NCBI GenBank assembly: GCA_004028765.1
Contig: SAIX01000049.1
Span: forward strand, 1-64,000
Length of the DNA: 64,000 nucleotides
Origin: Chitinophagaceae bacterium
GTDB taxonomy: Bacteria > Bacteroidota > Bacteroidia > Chitinophagales > Chitinophagaceae
Reading direction: 5' to 3'
Of the stretch, positions 18,693-31,263 are shown piece by piece. How positions within the stretch are numbered: the stretch's first letter is position 1; each line of letters opens with the position of its first letter. The notes under the pieces are model-generated. The model had not been told where the DNA came from. It did no database searches and saw only the letters and a list, made by a program, of their open reading frames with translations. A program made the position numbers and the translations under genes.

Positions 18693-21113
18693 TTATTTTC
18701 CTCCTTTTACATATTTCTCCAGCCACTGGTATTGTTCCCATAGCATATGCAGCAGGTTTTCCTTGCCACGATAGCTGTGCGCTTCATAAGGTAAGAATAC
18801 AAAACGTACCGTTCCGCCATTCCCTTTGATGGCAGCAAATAAACGTTCGCTATTAATGGGAAAGGTTCCGGTATTGTCATCTGCTTCACCATGTATCAGC
18901 AGGATCGGTGTTTTGATTTTATCGGCATAGCTGAACGGGCTCATTTCATAATACAGTTTAGGAGCCTGCCAGTAAGTGCGGTCTTCATTCTGGAAACCGA
19001 ATGGGGTAAGTGTGCGGTTGTATGCACCACTCCGTGCAATACCTGCTTTAAAGAGATTGGTATGCGCCAGCAGGTTGGCTGTCATAAATGCGCCGTAGCT
19101 ATGCCCGCCAACCGCCATCCTGTTTTTATCGCCCACACCCATTTCCACTAATTTATTAATCGCAGCTTCTGCATTGAGTTGTAATTGTGCAACAAAATCA
19201 TCGTTTGGTTTTTTATCCGGACCCGTGGAAACGATCGGCATTTCTGCATTGTCGAGAACGGCATATCCCTGTGTTACATAAAAGATGGGAGATGCCCAGC
19301 TGATGGCAGTAAAGCGGTCTTTGCTTCCGCGTACCTGTGCGGCATCTGCAGCGGAATTGAATTCTCTCGGATAAGCCCACATCAAAACGGGAAGCGGCCC
19401 GTCTTTTTCTTTGTTATATCCTTTGGGAAGGTAGAGATCGCCGGTGAGATCAACCCCATCGGCTCTTTTGTATTTGATCTTTTCTTTGGTAACGCCTTCC
19501 ATCTGCGGATAAGGATTAACAAAGCTGGTGATCGCTTTGTCGGCCATCCGCAATACAAGGTTTTTGATATAATAATTGGGAACTTCTTTCTGCGATTCAC
19601 GGCGGGTAAGCAAAACAAGTTTATCCGCATCGATCACGTCTTCCACCACTTCAAAAACACCTTCCTGGCAGCGCCAGATAATTTCATTCTTTTTACCCGC
19701 AAGATCAAACTTGGCGAGGAAGGGAAGATCGCCTTTGGGCGAAGAACCCGTGGTGTTGTTCATCAATATTTTTGTTCCATTGTCTGTGGTCTGTATCGCT
19801 GGTCTGCCGAATTTATTCCGGGTTAATACCGGGCTGCCGGGATTGTTATACGCATCGGTCTGATTGCGTTCGTATAACAATTCCATTGCGCCGGTAGCAG
19901 TATTAAAACGGCTTACCCTGTTCATCTGTTTGGTACGGGAAATTTCGGCTACCAGCGATAATGATGCATCGCCCCAGGTAGTGCCTGCATACCGCATTTT
20001 GGTTTTGAAAAGTTCTTTTGCTTCGCCGGTAAAAGGGGCGCTCAATGCATATACGGCATCATGGTATTCCACGTTGGTTTTGATCAAACCACCATCCAGT
20101 GGCATGGCCCATGTAATAGTAGCAGGTTCATCATCGCGCCAGTCGAAAGCACGGGCTACATTTTGTGTGTTATCGTAGCCCGATGGGGTTCCTTCGGTAG
20201 AAGGAAGTTCTGCAAGCACTTTCACTACTTTACCCGTAAGATCGGTAATGGCAACGGTTGAAGGAAAGCCATTGGCGGTAACGAGATAAGAGAATGGTTT
20301 TTTGATGGTGCGCACCAACATGTATTTTTTATCAGGTGAAATAGAAAAGCTGCTGATCAAACCCGCTTTCCCGATATTGGTTTCAACTCCGTTTTTATTT
20401 TGTACAAGTTGGGTGGTTGCATAAAATTCAAACAACTGCTCATCGTAAGGTGATTTGATCAGGTCCTGGAAAGTGGGACTGGGCGCGGCTTTGCCAAGAT
20501 TCTGCTGTACCGTTGGCCCTTTTGGCGTAATGGGGCGTTTGGCTGCATTGGTAGCGGGCTGGGTAGCTGTTTTGTACAACAGCGTATTATCATCCACCCA
20601 TGTATAGCTTTGCCCGAGTACTGCATTCAAAGGTTGTTTGTTGATCTTGGTGGCTTTTTTGGAAGCGATGTCGATCACATACAGGTCCACACGCGAACCG
20701 GTTGTATTGGTGAAGGCAATCTTTGTTTCAGAAGGGTTCCAGGTTGCGGCACCGGCGAGCATACCTGCGGGCAAACCTGCAATAGGGAATTCCTGGTTGC
20801 TTTTGATATTTTTTAACCTGAAATCATTCACAAAAGACTGCCTGCTGGGCGAATAATTATTCGGGTTCAGTCGTAAACCCGCGATGCGGATTTCGGGCTG
20901 GCCCAGTTCTTCCACTGTGGGATAAGAATTGCGTTCGCTTAACAGCATCCATTCTGCTTTGCTGTCGATGCGTACGCCGGGTGTAGGTTTGGCTAACAAC
21001 AGCTCAGCGATTTCTTTGGGAGGAGTTTGGTAACTCACGGCATCCTGTGCTTTTGGGCCGCTGAATGCCAGCAAAAGCAGGCAGCCTGCCAGGATCGGTT
21101 TTAGATTTCTCAT
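18693..21113 (-). CDS. S9-family prolyl oligopeptidase-type peptidase
   Basis: GGHSYGAFMTANLLAHT (nucleophile elbow), ILLIHGEADDNTGTFPINSERLF, YEAHSYRGKENLLHMLWE. Confidence 0.93.
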   Translation of the reverse strand: MRNLKPILAGCLLLLAFSGPKAQDAVSYQTPPKEIAELLLAKPTPGVRIDSKAEWMLLSERNSYPTVEELGQPEIRIAGLRLNPNNYSPSRQSFVNDFRLKNIKSNQEFPIAGLPAGMLAGAATWNPSETKIAFTNTTGSRVDLYVIDIASKKATKINKQPLNAVLGQSYTWVDDNTLLYKTATQPATNAAKRPITPKGPTVQQNLGKAAPSPTFQDLIKSPYDEQLFEFYATTQLVQNKNGVETNIGKAGLISSFSISPDKKYMLVRTIKKPFSYLVTANGFPSTVAITDLTGKVVKVLAELPSTEGTPSGYDNTQNVARAFDWRDDEPATITWAMPLDGGLIKTNVEYHDAVYALSAPFTGEAKELFKTKMRYAGTTWGDASLSLVAEISRTKQMNRVSRFNTATGAMELLYERNQTDAYNNPGSPVLTRNKFGRPAIQTTDNGTKILMNNTTGSSPKGDLPFLAKFDLAGKKNEIIWRCQEGVFEVVEDVIDADKLVLLTRRESQKEVPNYYIKNLVLRMADKAITSFVNPYPQMEGVTKEKIKYKRADGVDLTGDLYLPKGYNKEKDGPLPVLMWAYPREFNSAADAAQVRGSKDRFTAISWASPIFYVTQGYAVLDNAEMPIVSTGPDKKPNDDFVAQLQLNAEAAINKLVEMGVGDKNRMAVGGHSYGAFMTANLLAHTNLFKAGIARSGAYNRTLTPFGFQNEDRTYWQAPKLYYEMSPFSYADKIKTPILLIHGEADDNTGTFPINSERLFAAIKGNGGTVRFVFLPYEAHSYRGKENLLHMLWEQYQWLEKYVKGGK

Positions 21114-21141
21114 ACAGTTTTGTTTAGTTGTATTGTTCCGG

Positions 21142-21921
21142 TTATTGGTATACTCTCACATAATCCACTTCCATTTTTACCGGGTATATTGTTTCATCCA
21201 CGCCTTTTTGCCCGCCCCAGTCGCCACCCACGGCAATGTTCAGCAGCAGGTGAAATGGTGCATTAAAAGGCCAGGCTTCTTTTCCGGTATGTTCATTTTT
21301 GAAAGTGAAATAGGGTTTGCTGTCTACCGAGATCGTAATACTTTCCGCATCCCAGTCGAGCGAATACACATGAAACGCATCCCCGAAATCAGGAACGGAA
21401 GTAGTGGCAGTTTTCTGCGTGCCGATGCTGTGAAAATATTTCCGGGTATGTGCCGATGCATGGATCACGCCCGGATTGTATCCTACATGCTCCATGATAT
21501 CGATCTCCCCGTCATCGGGCCATTTCAATGGCGTAGTGGATCCGAGCATCCAGATAGCGGGCCAGGTACCCAGCCCTTTCGGCAACTTAGCCCGGACATC
21601 GATATGGCCATAGGTCCAATCGCCCTTGCCTTTTGTAACAAGGCGGGCAGAAGTGTAATGATTGGTGCCGTTTTTTTCTTTCCGGGCTTCAATAATGAGG
21701 TAACCATTTTCCACACGTGCGTTTTCGGCTTTGCGGGCTGTATAATACTGGAGTTCGTGGTTGCCCCATCCGTTTCCGCCCACATCATAACTCCATTTGG
21801 TGGAATCGGGTAAACCTTTGTAATTGAATTCATCGCTCCATACCAGCTTCTTTTTATCCTGTGCTATAGAAGCACTGTAACAGGCAAGGCTGCAGAGTAT
21901 AACAACTGTAAGTTTTCTCAT
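21142..21921 (-). CDS. Glycoside hydrolase family 16 protein (beta-glucanase/laminarinase-like)
   Basis: WGNHELQYYTARKAENARVENGYLIIEARKE, GTWPAIWML, DGEIDIMEHVG (ExDxxE catalytic motif). Confidence 0.94.
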   Translation of the reverse strand: MRKLTVVILCSLACYSASIAQDKKKLVWSDEFNYKGLPDSTKWSYDVGGNGWGNHELQYYTARKAENARVENGYLIIEARKEKNGTNHYTSARLVTKGKGDWTYGHIDVRAKLPKGLGTWPAIWMLGSTTPLKWPDDGEIDIMEHVGYNPGVIHASAHTRKYFHSIGTQKTATTSVPDFGDAFHVYSLDWDAESITISVDSKPYFTFKNEHTGKEAWPFNAPFHLLLNIAVGGDWGGQKGVDETIYPVKMEVDYVRVYQ

Positions 21922-21999
21922 CAGGTCAGTTTTTACGGATCAACAATATACTTACAAACCGCTACCCGGTTACATGAAATCGGTAAGACCCCAAAAAAA

Positions 22000-22031
22000 T
22001 TTGCCTGAAAACCTTTTGGGTATTAGCTTTG
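22000..22031 (+). promoter_or_regulatory. Bacteroidetes-type promoter for the his operon
   Basis: TTTG (22000-22003), 20-nt spacer, TAGCTTTG (22024-22031), exact match to TTTG/TAnnTTTG. Confidence 0.75.
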
Positions 22032-22038
22032 CCGCATC

Positions 22039-22089
22039 ATGAAAAGTTTTACGCACAAACATCACCATCATTTCTTACCCCGCGGGTAA
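22039..22089 (+). CDS. hisL: his operon leader peptide MKSFTHKHHHHFLPRG
   Basis: Direct translation gives 5 His in 16 codons, four consecutive (CAT CAC CAT CAT); upstream of hisG and followed by a terminator with an alternative pairing partner. Confidence 0.9.
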   Translation: MKSFTHKHHHHFLPRG

Positions 22090-22126
22090 GCTGTTGGTGT
22101 TTTGTGCAGGTCACAATAAAACATTA

Positions 22127-22155
22127 AAGGGCTTACTCCAGGGTAGGCCCTTTTT
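22127..22155 (+). terminator. his attenuator terminator
   Basis: AAGGGCTTAC-tccagg-GTAGGCCCTT (one G-U) followed by T tract; competing GGGTAAGC (22084-22091) / GCTTACTC (22131-22138) pairing. Confidence 0.88.
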
Positions 22156-22199
22156 ATTTTCCCGGAAGGGAAGCAAACCAAATGAATATGTCAAATACC

Positions 22200-23063
22200 A
22201 TGAATATTGTTAAACTGAAACTGGCGATCCAGAAAAGCGGCCGCCTGCACGACGATTCGATACGGCTGCTGAAAGAATGCGGTATCGATATCAGCAATGG
22301 CGTAAACAAACTGAAGGCGGAAGCCAGCAATTTCCCGATCGAAGTATATTTTTTACGCGACGACGATATCCCGCAATACGTAGAAGATGGCGTGGCCGAT
22401 ATCGGTTTTGTAGGAGAGAACGTGGTGTATGAAAAAAAGAAAAAAGTGACCGTTGCCGAAAAACTGGGCTTTGGAAAATGCAGGCTGAGTGTGGCGGTAC
22501 GGAAAAGTGAAGCCTTTACCGGCCCTTCTTTTCTGGAAGGGAAAAAAATTGCCACAAGTTATCCTGTGATCCTCGGAGACTATCTGAAAGCAAATAATGT
22601 AAATGCAGAGATACATGAGATCAGTGGCAGTGTTGAAATTGCACCGGGTATCGGCCTGGCCGATGCCATCTGCGACCTGGTAAGCAGTGGCTCCACTTTG
22701 TTTATGAACGGGTTAAAGGAAGCAGAAACCATCCTGCAATCACAGGCCGCGCTGATCAAAAACCAGGGGCTATCTGCAGAGCAGGAACAACTGATCGCGA
22801 GATTGTTGTTCCGTATTCAATCCGTAAAAAAAGCGAAGAACAATAAATACATTCTCCTGAATGCCCCGAATGAAAAACTGAAAGAGATCATTTCATTGTT
22901 ACCCGGAATGAAAAGCCCGACGGTATTGCCGCTGGCAGAAGAAGGCTGGAGCAGTGTACACAGCGTGCTGAATGAAAACGAATTCTGGGACATCATTGAG
23001 CAACTGAAAGCTGCGGGAGCACAGGGGATACTAGTGGTGCCGATTGAAAAGATGGTGGTGTAG
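22200..23063 (+). CDS. hisG: ATP phosphoribosyltransferase
   Basis: LAIQKSGRLHDDSIRLLKECGI, DIGFVGENVVYE, EISGSVEIAPGIGLADAICDLVSSGSTL; C-terminal regulatory domain present. Confidence 0.96.
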   Translation: MNIVKLKLAIQKSGRLHDDSIRLLKECGIDISNGVNKLKAEASNFPIEVYFLRDDDIPQYVEDGVADIGFVGENVVYEKKKKVTVAEKLGFGKCRLSVAVRKSEAFTGPSFLEGKKIATSYPVILGDYLKANNVNAEIHEISGSVEIAPGIGLADAICDLVSSGSTLFMNGLKEAETILQSQAALIKNQGLSAEQEQLIARLLFRIQSVKKAKNNKYILLNAPNEKLKEIISLLPGMKSPTVLPLAEEGWSSVHSVLNENEFWDIIEQLKAAGAQGILVVPIEKMVV

Positions 23064-23191: not shown

Positions 23192-24469
23192 ATGCAACAA
23201 ATAAAATACCCGGCCAAAGATCAATGGTCTTCCATATTAAAAAGGCCGGTGATCGATAACAGTTCCTTACAGCAAACGGTAAAAACCGTGATGGAACAAG
23301 TGCGGATGAACGGTGATGAAGCGATCAGAAAATACAGCTTACAATTCGATGGCGTTGCACCCGATGATTTTTTAGTGCCTGCAGAAGATTTTGCTACCGC
23401 TGAAAAAGCCGTTTCTGCAGAACTGAAAAAAGCGATACAACAGGCGGCTGCCAATATCCGTCTCTTCCATGAACAACAGGTTACAAAGCCAGCTGTTGTT
23501 GAAACCATGCCCGGTATCCAATGCTGGCGCAGTTCAGTGGGAATTGAAAAAGTAGGGCTGTATATTCCGGGCGGTACGGCACCATTGTTCTCTACCATCT
23601 TAATGCTCGCGATCCCCGCGAAGATCGCCGGTTGTAAGGAGATCATTTTATGTTCCCCCCCAGGAAAAGATGGCAAACTGAACCCCGCAATTCTATATGC
23701 CGCATCGCTGACAGGTATCACGTCAGTATATCGCATAGGAGGTGTACAGGCCATTGCTGCAATGACCTACGGCACAGAAACCATTCCCAAAGTGTATAAA
23801 ATTTTTGGTCCGGGTAACCAATATGTAACCTGCGCCAAACAACTGGCACAACAGGAAGGTACCGCCATCGATATGCCCGCCGGGCCGAGTGAAGTATGTG
23901 TAATGGCAGATGATACTGCCGATCCCGTTTTCATTGCCGCCGATCTGTTGAGCCAGGCCGAACATGGGGCCGACAGCCAGGTATTACTGGTGAGCACTTC
24001 GCCTGCAATCATCGATGTAGTTGAAAAAGAACTTTCTCGGCAACTGGATCTTTTGCCAAGAAAAGAATTTGCGGCAAAAGCTTTGCAGAACAGCAAAGCC
24101 GTTTTACTGAATAACAGGGAAGAAATGATTGAATTGGTAAACGAATATGCGGCCGAACACCTGATCATTTCCTGCGCGGAGGAAGATGCAGTTGCAGAAC
24201 GCATCATAAATGCAGGCTCTGTTTTTCTTGGTAATTATTCGCCCGAAAGCGTGGGTGATTATGCAAGCGGCACCAATCATACACTTCCTACCAATGGCTA
24301 TGCCCGGGCATACAGCGGAGTGAGTGTGGATAGTTTCGTAAAAAAGATCACGTACCAGAAATTAACGAAACAGGGCTTGCATCAGATTGCCGCTGCTGTT
24401 GAACAGATGGCAATGGCCGAAGGCCTGGAAGCACATGCCAATGCCGTTCGGGTAAGGATCCAGTCATAA
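23192..24469 (+). CDS. hisD: Histidinol dehydrogenase
   Basis: VGLYIPGGTAPLFSTILMLAIPAKIAGC, KIFGPGNQYVTCAKQLAQ, DMPAGPSEVCVMADDTADP, AEHGADSQVLL. Confidence 0.97.
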   Translation: MQQIKYPAKDQWSSILKRPVIDNSSLQQTVKTVMEQVRMNGDEAIRKYSLQFDGVAPDDFLVPAEDFATAEKAVSAELKKAIQQAAANIRLFHEQQVTKPAVVETMPGIQCWRSSVGIEKVGLYIPGGTAPLFSTILMLAIPAKIAGCKEIILCSPPGKDGKLNPAILYAASLTGITSVYRIGGVQAIAAMTYGTETIPKVYKIFGPGNQYVTCAKQLAQQEGTAIDMPAGPSEVCVMADDTADPVFIAADLLSQAEHGADSQVLLVSTSPAIIDVVEKELSRQLDLLPRKEFAAKALQNSKAVLLNNREEMIELVNEYAAEHLIISCAEEDAVAERIINAGSVFLGNYSPESVGDYASGTNHTLPTNGYARAYSGVSVDSFVKKITYQKLTKQGLHQIAAAVEQMAMAEGLEAHANAVRVRIQS

Positions 24470-24479
24470 AAAAAGCACT

Positions 24480-24899
24480 ATGTTCGAATACAAACTCATC
24501 GCGAAGGAAAATATGCAGAGCATTATCCCGCTGCTGCAGGTTCTGAATGATAAGATCGAAAGAAAAATACTGGAAGAAAGGCTTGCAGAAATGCTGCAGC
24601 GGGGATATGAATGCCTCGGTGTATATGATGGCGAAAAACTTATCGGCATCTGCGGGATATGGATACTTGTAAAATATTATGCCGGCCGCCACATCGAGCC
24701 CGATAATGTAATGATACTGCCTGAATACCGCAACAGGGGCATTGGCGAGGAAATGATGCAATGGATATATGCGTATGGCCGTTCAAAAGGTTGTGTGTCA
24801 TCTGAACTGAATTGTTATACCACGAACAGCGGCGGCCAGAAATTCTGGGCCAACGAAGGATATAAAATACTGGGGTTTCACTACCAAAAAAATCTGTAA
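24480..24899 (+). CDS. GNAT-family N-acetyltransferase
   Basis: IEPDNVMILPEYRNRGIGEEMMQWIYAYGRSKGC and NSGGQKFWANEGYKILGFHYQK. Confidence 0.88.
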   Translation: MFEYKLIAKENMQSIIPLLQVLNDKIERKILEERLAEMLQRGYECLGVYDGEKLIGICGIWILVKYYAGRHIEPDNVMILPEYRNRGIGEEMMQWIYAYGRSKGCVSSELNCYTTNSGGQKFWANEGYKILGFHYQKNL

Positions 24900-24909
24900 A
24901 AGAAAAAAT

Positions 24910-25965
24910 ATGGCATTTGATCTCGATACATTTGTAAGGCCCAATATCAAAAAACTTATCCCGTATTCTTCCGCCAGGGATGAATTCAGCGGGGAGGCAA
25001 AAATATTTCTCGATGCGAATGAGAACAGCCTTGGCTCACCATTGCTCAAATGGTATAACCGATACCCGGATCCACACCAGCTTGCGATCAAGAAAAAACT
25101 GGCGGTGATAAAATCCATCGGTGCGGAACATATTTTTCTCGGCAATGGCAGCGATGAATGTATCGATCTTTTATTCCGCAGCTTTTGTGAACCGGGAAAA
25201 GACAATGTGATCATTTGTCCGCCCACCTATGGTATGTATGAAGTATCTGCCAATATCAATGATGTGGCGATCAGGAAAGCGCCGTTGCTGGATGATTTTC
25301 AACTCAACCTCGCACATATCGAAACACTGGCGGATGCCAACACAAAACTCATCTGGCTTTGTTCTCCCAATAACCCGACGGGCAATGCATTGAACAGATC
25401 CGATATTGAAATGGTGCTGAATAATTTTGAAGGGATCGTTGTGATCGATGAAGCCTATATCAATTTCTCGAAACAGAAATCATTTATACAGGAACTGGCC
25501 GATTATCCGAACCTCGTTGTATTGCAGACACTGAGTAAGGCATGGGGCCTGGCCGGGCTTCGGCTCGGGATGGCATTCGCTTCTGAAGCCATTATCGGGA
25601 TTCTTGATAAAGTAAAACCTCCTTATAATATCAATCAAGCCACACAGGAACTGGTGCTGAAAGCACTGGATGAAGTGGGGCAGGTAAATGATATGATCCG
25701 CCTGCTGGTGGATATGCGCGATGCACTTGCCGATGTGTTCCGGTCGATGCCAACCGTGGAGAAAGTATATCCCTCCGATGCCAATTTTTTCCTGGTAAAG
25801 ATCAGGGAAGCCAGGAAAATCTATGAATTTTTACTCGGGAAAGGTATCGTGGTGCGCGACAGGAGCCATGTGAAACTGATTGAAGACTGTCTGCGTATCA
25901 CCGTTGGCACAGAACAGGAAAACACGCAGCTGGTGGAAGCGATGCAGCAATGGTATGAACAATAA
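24910..25965 (+). CDS. hisC: Histidinol-phosphate aminotransferase
   Basis: LDANENSLGSP, FLGNGSDECIDLLFRSF, LCSPNNPTGNAL, DEAYINFS, TLSKAWGLAGLRLGMAFAS. Confidence 0.96.
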   Translation: MAFDLDTFVRPNIKKLIPYSSARDEFSGEAKIFLDANENSLGSPLLKWYNRYPDPHQLAIKKKLAVIKSIGAEHIFLGNGSDECIDLLFRSFCEPGKDNVIICPPTYGMYEVSANINDVAIRKAPLLDDFQLNLAHIETLADANTKLIWLCSPNNPTGNALNRSDIEMVLNNFEGIVVIDEAYINFSKQKSFIQELADYPNLVVLQTLSKAWGLAGLRLGMAFASEAIIGILDKVKPPYNINQATQELVLKALDEVGQVNDMIRLLVDMRDALADVFRSMPTVEKVYPSDANFFLVKIREARKIYEFLLGKGIVVRDRSHVKLIEDCLRITVGTEQENTQLVEAMQQWYEQ

Positions 25966-26022
25966 ACAAAACCGCCGGGTATCTGTTTTCATTGTAATTT
26001 CAAAGCCCAAATAAATACTGTT

Positions 26023-27342
26023 ATGAAAAACAACTTTCTTCTCTCACTCTCATTACTGGCCGTTTTCAGCGCCTGCGCCCAGCAACCGGGCGATAACCCT
26101 GGTGTTTATTCACCTGAAAAGAGCGCTGTCCCGAAACCGGCAGGGCTCGTAGCTGATGCGGACAACGCCGGATTAAAACTGCCCGCAGGTTTTGGTGCGA
26201 TCAAAGTTGCGGATGGCATTGGCCGTGCAAGACATATTGTGGTTACCCAGCAGGGAGATATTTATGTAAAACTGATGCGTGCTGTGGATGGGAAAGGAGT
26301 TTTAAAATTGCATGACAACAATGGTGATGGTAAATCAGACGCCACCACCGGCTTTGGTAATTATGGCGGTACAGGTATCGCCATTAAGAACGGGTACCTC
26401 TACGCATCTTCCGATGAAGAAGTGTTCCGCTATAAGCTGGATGCAAAAGGCGATGTGATCGCCCCGCTTCAACCTGAAAAAATTATTTCCGGACTGATTA
26501 ACCGCCGCCAGCATGAATCAAAGTCCATCGCGCTGGATAACAATGGAAATATTTATGTGAACATCGGCGCTTATTCCAATTCCTGCCAGGAGCGCGACAG
26601 GCAAACAGGTTCAATGGGGATGAAACCCTGCCCCATACTCGATTCTGCCGGTGGCATCTGGCAGTTCAAAGCGGATAAACTGAACCAGACTTATGGAGAT
26701 GGGGTTCGCTATGCCACCGGTTTGCGCAATGTCGTAGGGCTCGACTGGAACAGCCAGGCCAACCAGCTGTTTGTAATGCAGCATGGAAGAGATGACCTGC
26801 ATAATATTTTCCCTGCCTTATACACCGAGCAGGAAAATGCAGACCTGCCTGCTGAAACCATGTATGCTTTAAAGAAAGGCGACAACGCGGGCTGGCCTTA
26901 TATTTATTACGATCCTTTTAAGAATAAAAAAATACAATCACCTGAATATGGTGGCGATGGTAAGAAAGAAGGCAGCAGCGAATATGTAGATCCGGTTGTA
27001 GCATTCCCTGCGCACATGGCGCCGAATGGATTATTGTTTTATACCGGGAATATGTTTCCTGCAAAATATAAGAATGGTGCATTCATTGCATTTCATGGTT
27101 CCTGGAACCGCGCACCACTTCCGCAGGAAGGATATTATGTAGCATTTGTTCCTTTTGAGAATGGAAAACCCAGTGGTAAATGGGAAGTATTCGCCAATGG
27201 TTTTGCAGGCATAGAAGTGGTTACCGGTACGCGCGGCGCGCAACACCGCCCTTGCGGATTGGCCCAGGGCCCCGATGGGTCGCTCTACGTATCCGATGAT
27301 GTTAAGGGAACCATTTACCGTATCATTTATACCGGCAAATAA
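26023..27342 (+). CDS. PQQ-type glucose/sorbosone dehydrogenase family protein
   Basis: Signal peptide with AC-A lipobox-like site; GIAIKNGYLYASSDEEVFRYKL, GLRNVVGLDWN, VMQHGRDDLHNIFP, FIAFHGSWNRAP, PCGLAQGPDGSLYVSDDVKGTIYRI. Confidence 0.9.
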   Translation: MKNNFLLSLSLLAVFSACAQQPGDNPGVYSPEKSAVPKPAGLVADADNAGLKLPAGFGAIKVADGIGRARHIVVTQQGDIYVKLMRAVDGKGVLKLHDNNGDGKSDATTGFGNYGGTGIAIKNGYLYASSDEEVFRYKLDAKGDVIAPLQPEKIISGLINRRQHESKSIALDNNGNIYVNIGAYSNSCQERDRQTGSMGMKPCPILDSAGGIWQFKADKLNQTYGDGVRYATGLRNVVGLDWNSQANQLFVMQHGRDDLHNIFPALYTEQENADLPAETMYALKKGDNAGWPYIYYDPFKNKKIQSPEYGGDGKKEGSSEYVDPVVAFPAHMAPNGLLFYTGNMFPAKYKNGAFIAFHGSWNRAPLPQEGYYVAFVPFENGKPSGKWEVFANGFAGIEVVTGTRGAQHRPCGLAQGPDGSLYVSDDVKGTIYRIIYTGK

Positions 27343-27345
27343 AGT

Positions 27346-27816
27346 ATGAAACAAAAAGCATTGATGGCACTAAGTGCATTGGCCCTGCTCTCATTCCAAA
27401 CGGCTCCAAAAAAAACTGCTTCTGCTTCGGCGGTGAATAAATCCAATGCTGCCACGCCTGCAAAGACGACTGCAGGCAATGCAGCTGTGATGGAAAGGGG
27501 GAAAACGGTTTACCTCACCCAATGCCTTGCCTGTCACCAGGTAGATGGCGGTGGTGTACCTCACCTGAATGCACCCCTTGATGGCGCAACTGCGGTTACG
27601 GGTAAAGACAAGGCAAAACTGATTACGATTGTGATAAAGGGACTAAAAGGGGTGGAACTGGATGGCGAATTTTACAGCAATGCCATGGCCCCGCATCCTG
27701 AAATGACCGATCAGCAGATTGCAGATGTATTAACCTATATAAGGAACAGTTGGAGCAATAAAGCCTCTGCTGTTACAGCAGCGGAAGTAAAAGCCGTTAG
27801 GGCTAAAATAAAATGA
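27346..27816 (+). CDS. c-type cytochrome
   Basis: [21 protein letters not shown] (CxxCH) and [25 protein letters not shown] (distal Met). Confidence 0.93.
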
Positions 27817-27817
27817 A

Positions 27818-28951
27818 ATGGCCAAAAGGATCTTATTTATTGACAGGGATGGAGTAGTGTTACAGGAACCGCCTTTGGATTTCCAGGTAGACAGTATTGA
27901 GAAAACTTCTTTTGTTCCCGGGGCAATCACTGCATTGGCACGGATAGCAGCAGAACTGGATTTTTATAAAGTGATGGTGACCAACCAGGACGGGTTGGGT
28001 ACTGAATCGTATCCTGAAAAAGATTTTAGCCCTTATCATAACCTGATGCTGCGCACATTGCAGGGTGAAGGGTTTGTGTTTGATGAAATGATCATCGACA
28101 AAACTTTTGCACACGAAAACAAGCCTACACGTAAACCGGGTACAGCTTTACTGCAGCACTTCATCAACAACCCGGAATATGATCTCGCCAATTCATTTGT
28201 GATCGGCGACAGGTGGAGTGATATTGAACTGGCAAAAAACCTCGGTTGTAAAGCCATTTATTTTCGTTCAGGTCTGCACCAGTTAACGGATGAACAGGAA
28301 ATAAGGTTGCGTGAGACGATCGTTTTTGAAACCGGCGACTGGCAGGCAGTATATACTTTTCTGAAGCTTGGATTAAGAAAAGTAACGCATGAACGGAATA
28401 CAAACGAAACAAAGATCCATATAGAACTGAACCTGGATGGCAGCGGTAAGGCAAAAATTGAAACGGGCCTTGGTTTTTTTGATCATATGCTCGACCAGAT
28501 CGCGAGGCATGGGAAGATGGATCTCACCGTGATCACAAAAGGTGACCTGCATATTGATGAACACCACACTATTGAAGATACCGGTATTGCTTTGGGCGAA
28601 GCGTTTGCAAAAGCGCTGGCCGATAAACGCGGCATGGAAAGATATGGATTCGCACTGCCGATGGATGAAGCCGAAGCAAAAGTACTGATCGATTTCGGCG
28701 GGCGTAACTGGATCGTTTGGGATGCTGAATTTAAAAGAGAAAAAATAGGGGAGGTGCCTACTGAAATGTTTTTTCATTTCTTCAAATCATTCAGTGATGC
28801 GGCAAAATGCAACCTGAACATCGAATGTACCGGCGAGAACGAACACCATAAAATTGAAGCCATCTTCAAAGCCTTTGCCAAAGCTATCCGTATGGCCGTA
28901 AAGCGCGACCCGATGAGTAATCACCTGCCTTCTACGAAAGGGGTTTTGTGA
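27818..28951 (+). CDS. hisB: Bifunctional histidinol-phosphatase / imidazoleglycerol-phosphate dehydratase
   Basis: HAD domain [15 protein letters not shown]...[22 protein letters not shown] plus IGPD domain [36 protein letters not shown]. Confidence 0.96.
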
Positions 28952-31045: not shown

Positions 31046-31077
31046 TTTGTTTATCCAAACATTCTGCCCCAAATTTG
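31046..31077 (+). promoter_or_regulatory. Bacteroidetes-type promoter for the trp operon
   Basis: TTTG (31046-31049), 20-nt spacer, CAAATTTG (31070-31077), one mismatch to TAnnTTTG. Confidence 0.6.
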
Positions 31078-31111
31078 CCCTGTCATGAAACAAATAGCAG
31101 GGCAAAATTGG
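31069..31111. repeat. 13/14-matching inverted repeat around the trp leader start codon
   Basis: CCAAATTTGCCCTG (31069-31082), 15 nt, CAGGGCAAAATTGG (31098-31111). Confidence 0.75.
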
Positions 31112-31144
31112 TGGTGGCATTCAAACTCCGGTCGGGGATTGTAA
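31085..31144 (+). CDS. trpL: trp operon leader peptide MKQIAGQNWWWHSNSGRGL
   Basis: Direct translation shows three consecutive TGG codons; upstream of trpE and followed by a terminator. Confidence 0.92.
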   Translation: MKQIAGQNWWWHSNSGRGL

Positions 31145-31173
31145 TGGCATGCCAGTACGTTTGAATCATATTC

Positions 31174-31206
31174 AAAACCCCGACAATAAAATGTCGGGGT
31201 TTTTGT
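31174..31206 (+). terminator. trp attenuator terminator
   Basis: AAAACCCCGACA-ataaaa-TGTCGGGGTTTT perfect 12-bp stem plus T tract; competing GTCGGGG (31131-31137) / CCCCGAC (31178-31184). Confidence 0.92.
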
Positions 31207-31263
31207 TTTTGTGAATTGATGATACCGCTGAAAACAAGCGGCGGAAAAGAGGAAATACATACC

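Follow-up and report, generated by a model that had tools for sequence, protein, structure and literature searches.

The window, by which we mean the whole stretch of 64,000 nucleotides analysed here (contig SAIX01000049.1 of a Chitinophagaceae bacterium), carries a set of histidine biosynthesis genes on its plus strand. The first structural gene, hisG (ATP phosphoribosyltransferase, 22182-23063), was assigned by PF01634 (E 3.2e-52) and PF08029 and would head the controlled operon. Downstream of it the operon continues over 23192-28951 of the window and, according to Pfam, includes hisD (23192-24469), a gene for a HisC-like aminotransferase (24910-25965) and hisB (27818-28951), all on the plus strand. 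Unrelated plus-strand genes are interspersed, encoding a GNAT acetyltransferase between hisD and hisC (24480-24899) and a sorbosone-dehydrogenase-like protein and cytochrome c between hisC and hisB (26023-27816). The upstream neighbour of hisG is a GH16 gene on the minus strand, giving a divergent intergenic region, and a plus-strand terminator in this position can therefore act on the his transcript only.

A conserved His-rich leader ORF upstream of hisG

Direct reading of the plus strand upstream of hisG reveals an ORF of 16 codons (22039-22089; ATG at 22039-22041, TAA at 22087-22089) that translates as MKSFTHKHHHHFLPRG and contains five His codons. A first-pass annotation of this DNA had proposed a His-rich leader at this place, and we reproduced it base for base. 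We compared the region with 80 related hisG loci in an alignment of 80 sequences. A His-rich leader is found in all 80 relatives, 79 of them with an ATG start and one (L063) with GTG, the latter translating under table 11 as MKQNTHIHHHHEHPIG. The His-rich leader ORF is beyond chance; an ATG ORF with at least four His per seven codons is present in 78 of 80 hisG upstream regions versus none of 2000 shuffled regions, and the background rate across tiles of the window is 4 in 850. The peptide ends in Leu-Pro-x-Gly, probably because RNA pairing constrains these codons: TTA CCN and GGG TAA/TAG would encode the segments 1 and 2 described below.

Mutually exclusive pairings between the leader ORF and hisG

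Segment 1 (A, CTTACCC, 22074-22080) lies within the ORF and is followed by segment 2 (B, GGGTAAGCT, 22084-22092), which is common to a 1:2 stem and an antiterminator, and by segment 3 (C, GGCTTACTC, 22130-22138), which is common to the antiterminator and a terminator. Segments 1 and 3 are near copies of each other (CUUACCC and GCUUACUC), as are segments 2 and 4 (GGGUAAGC and GGGUAGGC), so that partner swapping is possible. Both the folds and the alignment indicate that the 1:2, 2:3 and 3:4 pairings are mutually exclusive. In the MFE and the centroid fold the 1:2 pairing forms an extended stem (22053-22107): the His-codon segment is joined to GGUGUUUUGUGC 3' of the ORF, and A:B, read directly from the sequence and conserved, sits at the tip. 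The antiterminator consists of B:C together with a fold-derived inner helix (22094-22105 with 22116-22127), jointly -22.3 kcal/mol. The intrinsic terminator with its U tract (22126-22159; stem 22126-22137 with 22142-22153, -16.8 kcal/mol, z -3.7) is located between the leader ORF and hisG.

The pairings had all been seen in the first-pass annotation, and direct reading places them exactly: CTTACCC (22074-22080) with GGGTAAG (22084-22090), GGGTAAGC (22084-22091) with GCTTACTC (22131-22138) as antiterminator with one G-U, and AAGGGCTTAC (22127-22136) with GTAGGCCCTT (22143-22152) as terminator, also with one G-U and with a T tract from 22151. All three are present, but two of them had been drawn too short: the first helix is the tip of the 22053-22107 stem, and the antiterminator has a second helix (22094-22127) that had been overlooked. 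The leader region as a whole has an MFE of -42.6 kcal/mol (z = -5.8), matched by none of 200 shuffles, and the 1:2 part, the antiterminator and the terminator folded singly each give a z of about -3.7 to -3.9 against shuffles.

Segments A to D are present in the window and in all 79 ATG-start relatives, and by inspection in L063; the earlier expectation that relatives would carry both the His run and the alternating helices is thus borne out in 80 of 80. The terminator is found in all aligned relatives, and 94% of its cells are paired; 5 of its 12 pairs vary on both sides, and a compensatory A-U/G-C exchange occurs in 30 of 80 sequences at each of two neighbouring pairs. Across the whole helices, 90-94% of cells retain the antiterminator and terminator pairings. 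For A:B the figure is 88%, and for the helices flanking it in the 1:2 stem 38-82%. The antiterminator core B:C is paired in 97-100% of aligned sequences; its bases are nearly invariant because each must serve two partners, and covariation is therefore uninformative for this core. The inner antiterminator helix is paired in 76% of cells and has changes on both sides at 10 of 12 pairs, a modest signal over controls. For the whole terminated structure, none of 500 shuffles matches the observed percentage paired or the covariation score, and slid controls, only 31-47% paired, all fall below the observed structure in both cells paired and covariation score. Run on the whole alignment, RNAalifold recovered just the terminator and, from the 1:2 hairpin, three pairs; competition between the two folds is the probable reason. 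A covariance model of the element that we built ourselves gave one strong match in the source genome (E about 1e-24). Outside this genome we examined the 29 top loci of the class, and 25 of them precede hisG. What the analysis shows at this locus is the sequence, its conservation, the alternative pairings and their folding energies.

Hairpins resembling terminators are frequent and the ORF is just 16 codons long, as would suit a plain terminator or RNA-stability hairpin next to a His-rich ORF that is accidental or encodes a non-regulatory small protein. We consider this explanation very improbable in view of the His run in 80 of 80 relatives and in the hisG upstream regions of many other families, and the failure of all 2000 shuffles to produce a His-run ORF. 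Also against it are the position of the terminator, directly after the promoter and within the divergent intergenic region, and the presence in the same genome of leaders rich in Trp, Phe and branched-chain residues ahead of trpE, pheA and a branched-chain aminotransferase gene, respectively.

A predicted leader-peptide attenuator and its relation to known systems

To follow the pairings with a ribosome on the leader, we removed the ribosome footprint from the RNA before folding (masked-ribosome folding) in 80 sequences. The terminator wins in 75 of 80 without a ribosome and in 80 of 80 with a ribosome at the stop codon. When the ribosome is stalled at the first, second or third His codon and the RNA extends as far as segment 3, 78 of 80 sequences give the antiterminator a value above 0.5. 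In the window itself, the antiterminator reaches 0.73-0.92 with a stalled ribosome even when the terminator is complete. Under the same circumstances, equilibrium favours the terminator in 61-66 of about 80 sequences, and the switch in most relatives must therefore depend on folding order. The suggestion made earlier that a ribosome stalled on the His run would leave segment 2 free agrees with the masked folding, which frees segment 2 upon a His-codon stall and covers it upon completion of the ORF.

Taken with the conserved leader and helices and with hisG lying downstream, this switch geometry supports the attenuator first proposed for the site, and we are highly confident that the element serves the hisG-D-C-B operon as a ribosome-mediated (leader-peptide) transcription attenuator. 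Transcription would start some 3 nt 5' of the leader ATG, and a ribosome would begin to translate the His-rich ORF of 16 codons. Given sufficient His-tRNA, this ribosome would reach the stop codon and cover segments 1 and 2, allowing 3:4 to pair and transcription to end at about 22151-22155. When charged His-tRNA is scarce, the ribosome would stall on the His run and disrupt the 1:2 stem; segment 2 would then pair with segment 3 before segment 4 exists, and polymerase would continue into hisG. Were there no translation, 1:2 and 3:4 would form and transcription would stop. We infer, in this model, that the leader is translated, that transcription begins at the predicted site, that the operon responds to histidine and that transcription and translation are coupled.

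Riboswitches and tRNA-sensing T-boxes elsewhere control amino-acid genes through just such terminator/antiterminator switches, and a metabolite-binding riboswitch or a T-box could in principle take the place of the leader peptide. The chance of this appears negligible. T-box models gave no match in 21000-23000 or in the window in an Rfam scan, no noteworthy T-box or riboswitch match falls at the element, the run of His codons is kept in frame, and nothing resembling a conserved aptamer can be seen beyond the ORF and pairing segments. The Rfam model of the enterobacterial his leader, RF00514 (His_leader), had no match at E up to 10 in 21000-23000 and none at gathering score in the window. Thr_leader and AbsR25 gave weak matches below gathering score, which reflect the terminator and the general layout. 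Bacteroid-trp RNA, thought to be a trp-operon attenuator, was also considered; its model (RF01692) matched neither 22000-22160 nor the window's trp leader. It has been reported as a cis-regulatory RNA in Bacteroidetes (PMC2864571) and resembles the present leader in being such an RNA of this phylum, but concerns another amino acid.

Leader-peptide attenuation of his operons is textbook knowledge in Proteobacteria, and in the enterobacterial his attenuator (hisL) a His-codon run and segments pairing as 1:2, 2:3 and 3:4 precede a terminator before hisG. The Chitinophagaceae attenuator described here is similar to hisL (RF00514) in all these respects, including the short leader, but has other pairing sequences (CUUACC/GGUAAG repeats), a Bacteroidota promoter and almost no predicted 5' UTR. 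The mechanism of his leader-peptide attenuation is summarised in PMC9413887. In Firmicutes His-leader attenuators, the short peptide has three to five His codons in succession (PMC9413887, PMC2965389), and this His run likewise precedes attenuator, antiterminator and terminator hairpins; they belong to another phylum, and the comparison made here is of layout. Closer to our case is Flavobacterium psychrophilum, where a structured 5' element without an Rfam match was found upstream of hisG and "strong clues" for leader-peptide attenuation were noted upstream of amino-acid operons (PMC9723704). Phylum and gene are the same, but the main text of that report gives neither a peptide nor an alternative pairing. 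In a literature search we came upon no account of a Chitinophagaceae His leader peptide and its switch. The hisG 5' element and the hints of attenuation in F. psychrophilum are thus already known, as is this kind of switch in general; added here are the leader peptide, the switch, their presence in every relative examined, their absence from Rfam, and the promoter spacing described below.

His leaders are also found outside the family. Among 89 further Bacteroidota hisG regions, a crude and simple ORF scan picked out 72-75 with a short His-rich ORF, and in distant lineages some of these ORFs are probably spurious; a terminator-like hairpin follows 63 of the His-rich ORFs, and 39 regions have an antiterminator complement better than 5% of shuffles. 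In most of the other families sampled, hisG is preceded by a His-rich leader. Many of these further loci use a different terminator, and the Flavobacteriaceae-like loci differ from the Chitinophagaceae element both in this terminator (CCCGUUUGAG...CAAACGGG) and in a leader ATG farther from the -7 box.

In two other lineages (L089, L090, L094 and L098; L114-L117, L158 and L159) the His-rich leader stands before hisG without a recognisable intrinsic terminator, and this would favour a leader that governs hisG translation, or works via Rho, instead of intrinsic termination. For the window and its relatives such control is most improbable, as they have a strong hairpin and U tract, and the partner of segment 4 is segment 3 and not the hisG start. 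In the terminator-less lineages themselves a hairpin overlaps the leader stop codon (for example ATTCCTCTTGAGGAGGAAT), and control there may act through Rho or at translation.

As a predicted histidine attenuator common to a bacterial class, outside Rfam coverage and now annotated for a core pathway, the element also bears on how transcription and translation are connected. Attenuation works only with a ribosome close behind RNA polymerase, and conserved his, trp, phe and branched-chain attenuators would therefore be indirect evidence for coupling in Bacteroidota. To our knowledge, transcription-translation coupling has hardly been studied in Bacteroidota, and these attenuators would be ready reporters of it.

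Promoter spacing and other amino-acid leaders in the same genome

The first-pass annotation overlooked a consensus promoter whose end lies 7 nt 5' of the leader ATG. This predicted Bacteroidota primary-sigma promoter, TTTG-N20-TAGCTTTG (22000-22031, plus strand), has TTTG as its -33 element (22000-22003) and TAGCTTTG as its -7 box (22024-22031; consensus TAnnTTTG), and both sequence and spacing are kept in relatives. Permitting the earliest in-frame leader start in each of 80 sequences, we found an exact TAnnTTTG box ending 4-10 nt 5' of the leader start in 70, compared with a shuffled expectation of 0.8% per sequence, and an exact TTTG, mostly 20 nt 5' of the -7 box, in 65. Transcription is predicted to start at about 22036. 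The -7 box in F. psychrophilum occupies -12 to -5 (PMC9723704), and the predicted his leader 5' UTR is therefore 0-6 nt. From the conserved promoter spacing and this box position (PMC9723704), the leader-peptide mRNA is predicted to be near-leaderless. Such mRNAs are uncommon in Bacteroidota, judging by the 5.5% of leaderless mRNAs in F. psychrophilum (PMC9723704) and the approximately 3.7% of 5' UTRs shorter than 10 nt in Bacteroides thetaiotaomicron (PMC7366714). A precedent for leaderless leader peptides is provided by Sinorhizobium meliloti trpL, whose leader-peptide mRNA has its 5' end at the ATG (PMC7298713); that 5' end is reported, whereas the near-leaderless start in Chitinophagaceae is predicted, for his and trp leaders. 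A genome-wide scan for the promoter-plus-ATG pattern gave 14 matches versus 15 in a reversed control, so the box-to-ATG spacing is no general feature of the source genome.

A second, predicted attenuator upstream of trpE (31046-31210), ahead of the window's trp operon, had likewise been overlooked. Its Trp-rich leader MKQIAGQNWWWHSNSGRGL (31085-31144) follows the design of the his leader, starting 7 nt after a promoter-like TTTG-N20-CAAATTTG, with an antiterminator pairing GUCGGGG:CCCCGAC and a terminator at about 31174-31205 (CCCCGACA...TGTCGGGG plus T tract). Each of the 30 family trpE loci that we inspected has a WWW leader in front. In 24 of them a -7-like box, with one mismatch at most, lies within 11 nt of the start, and the commonest distance is 7 nt. 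In many relatives (L199-L225) the -7 box of the trp leader, which corresponds to 31070-31077 of the window, often reads CATATTTG, with C for the first T, and this departure from TAnnTTTG is consistent.

Whether the his and trp (probably also phe) attenuators of Chitinophagaceae share a near-leaderless design, with a start codon 4-10 nt past the -7 box and early ribosome loading without a Shine-Dalgarno sequence, we rate as an even chance. A start codon so placed would mean that the first ribosome could load almost upon emergence of the ORF. If true, the design would time ribosome against polymerase in Bacteroidota, and the predicted start sharpens the question of loading, namely how initiation would be fast without leader and without Shine-Dalgarno.

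Further leaders were noticed in the same genome. Upstream of the prephenate dehydratase gene pheA (L181:2173; C93:26672), a Phe/Tyr-rich leader, MKTIRTNTFYFFFYYFFEKRSRVVFVKA, begins 7 nt past TATATTTG and is accompanied by a terminator. An Ile/Val/Thr-rich leader, MFRKAINNVISTITVITVIVIIIPALHGG, followed by a strong terminator, is located upstream of a branched-chain-aminotransferase-like gene (L179:8627; C76:15626), with a box-like TAACTTCG 17 nt 5' of its ATG. Lastly, a possible Lys/Met/Thr leader, MMTMKHTKRSKKPL, 7 nt past TATTTTCG and followed by a terminator (L257:1511; C107:124957), lies upstream of an aspartate-semialdehyde-dehydrogenase-like gene.
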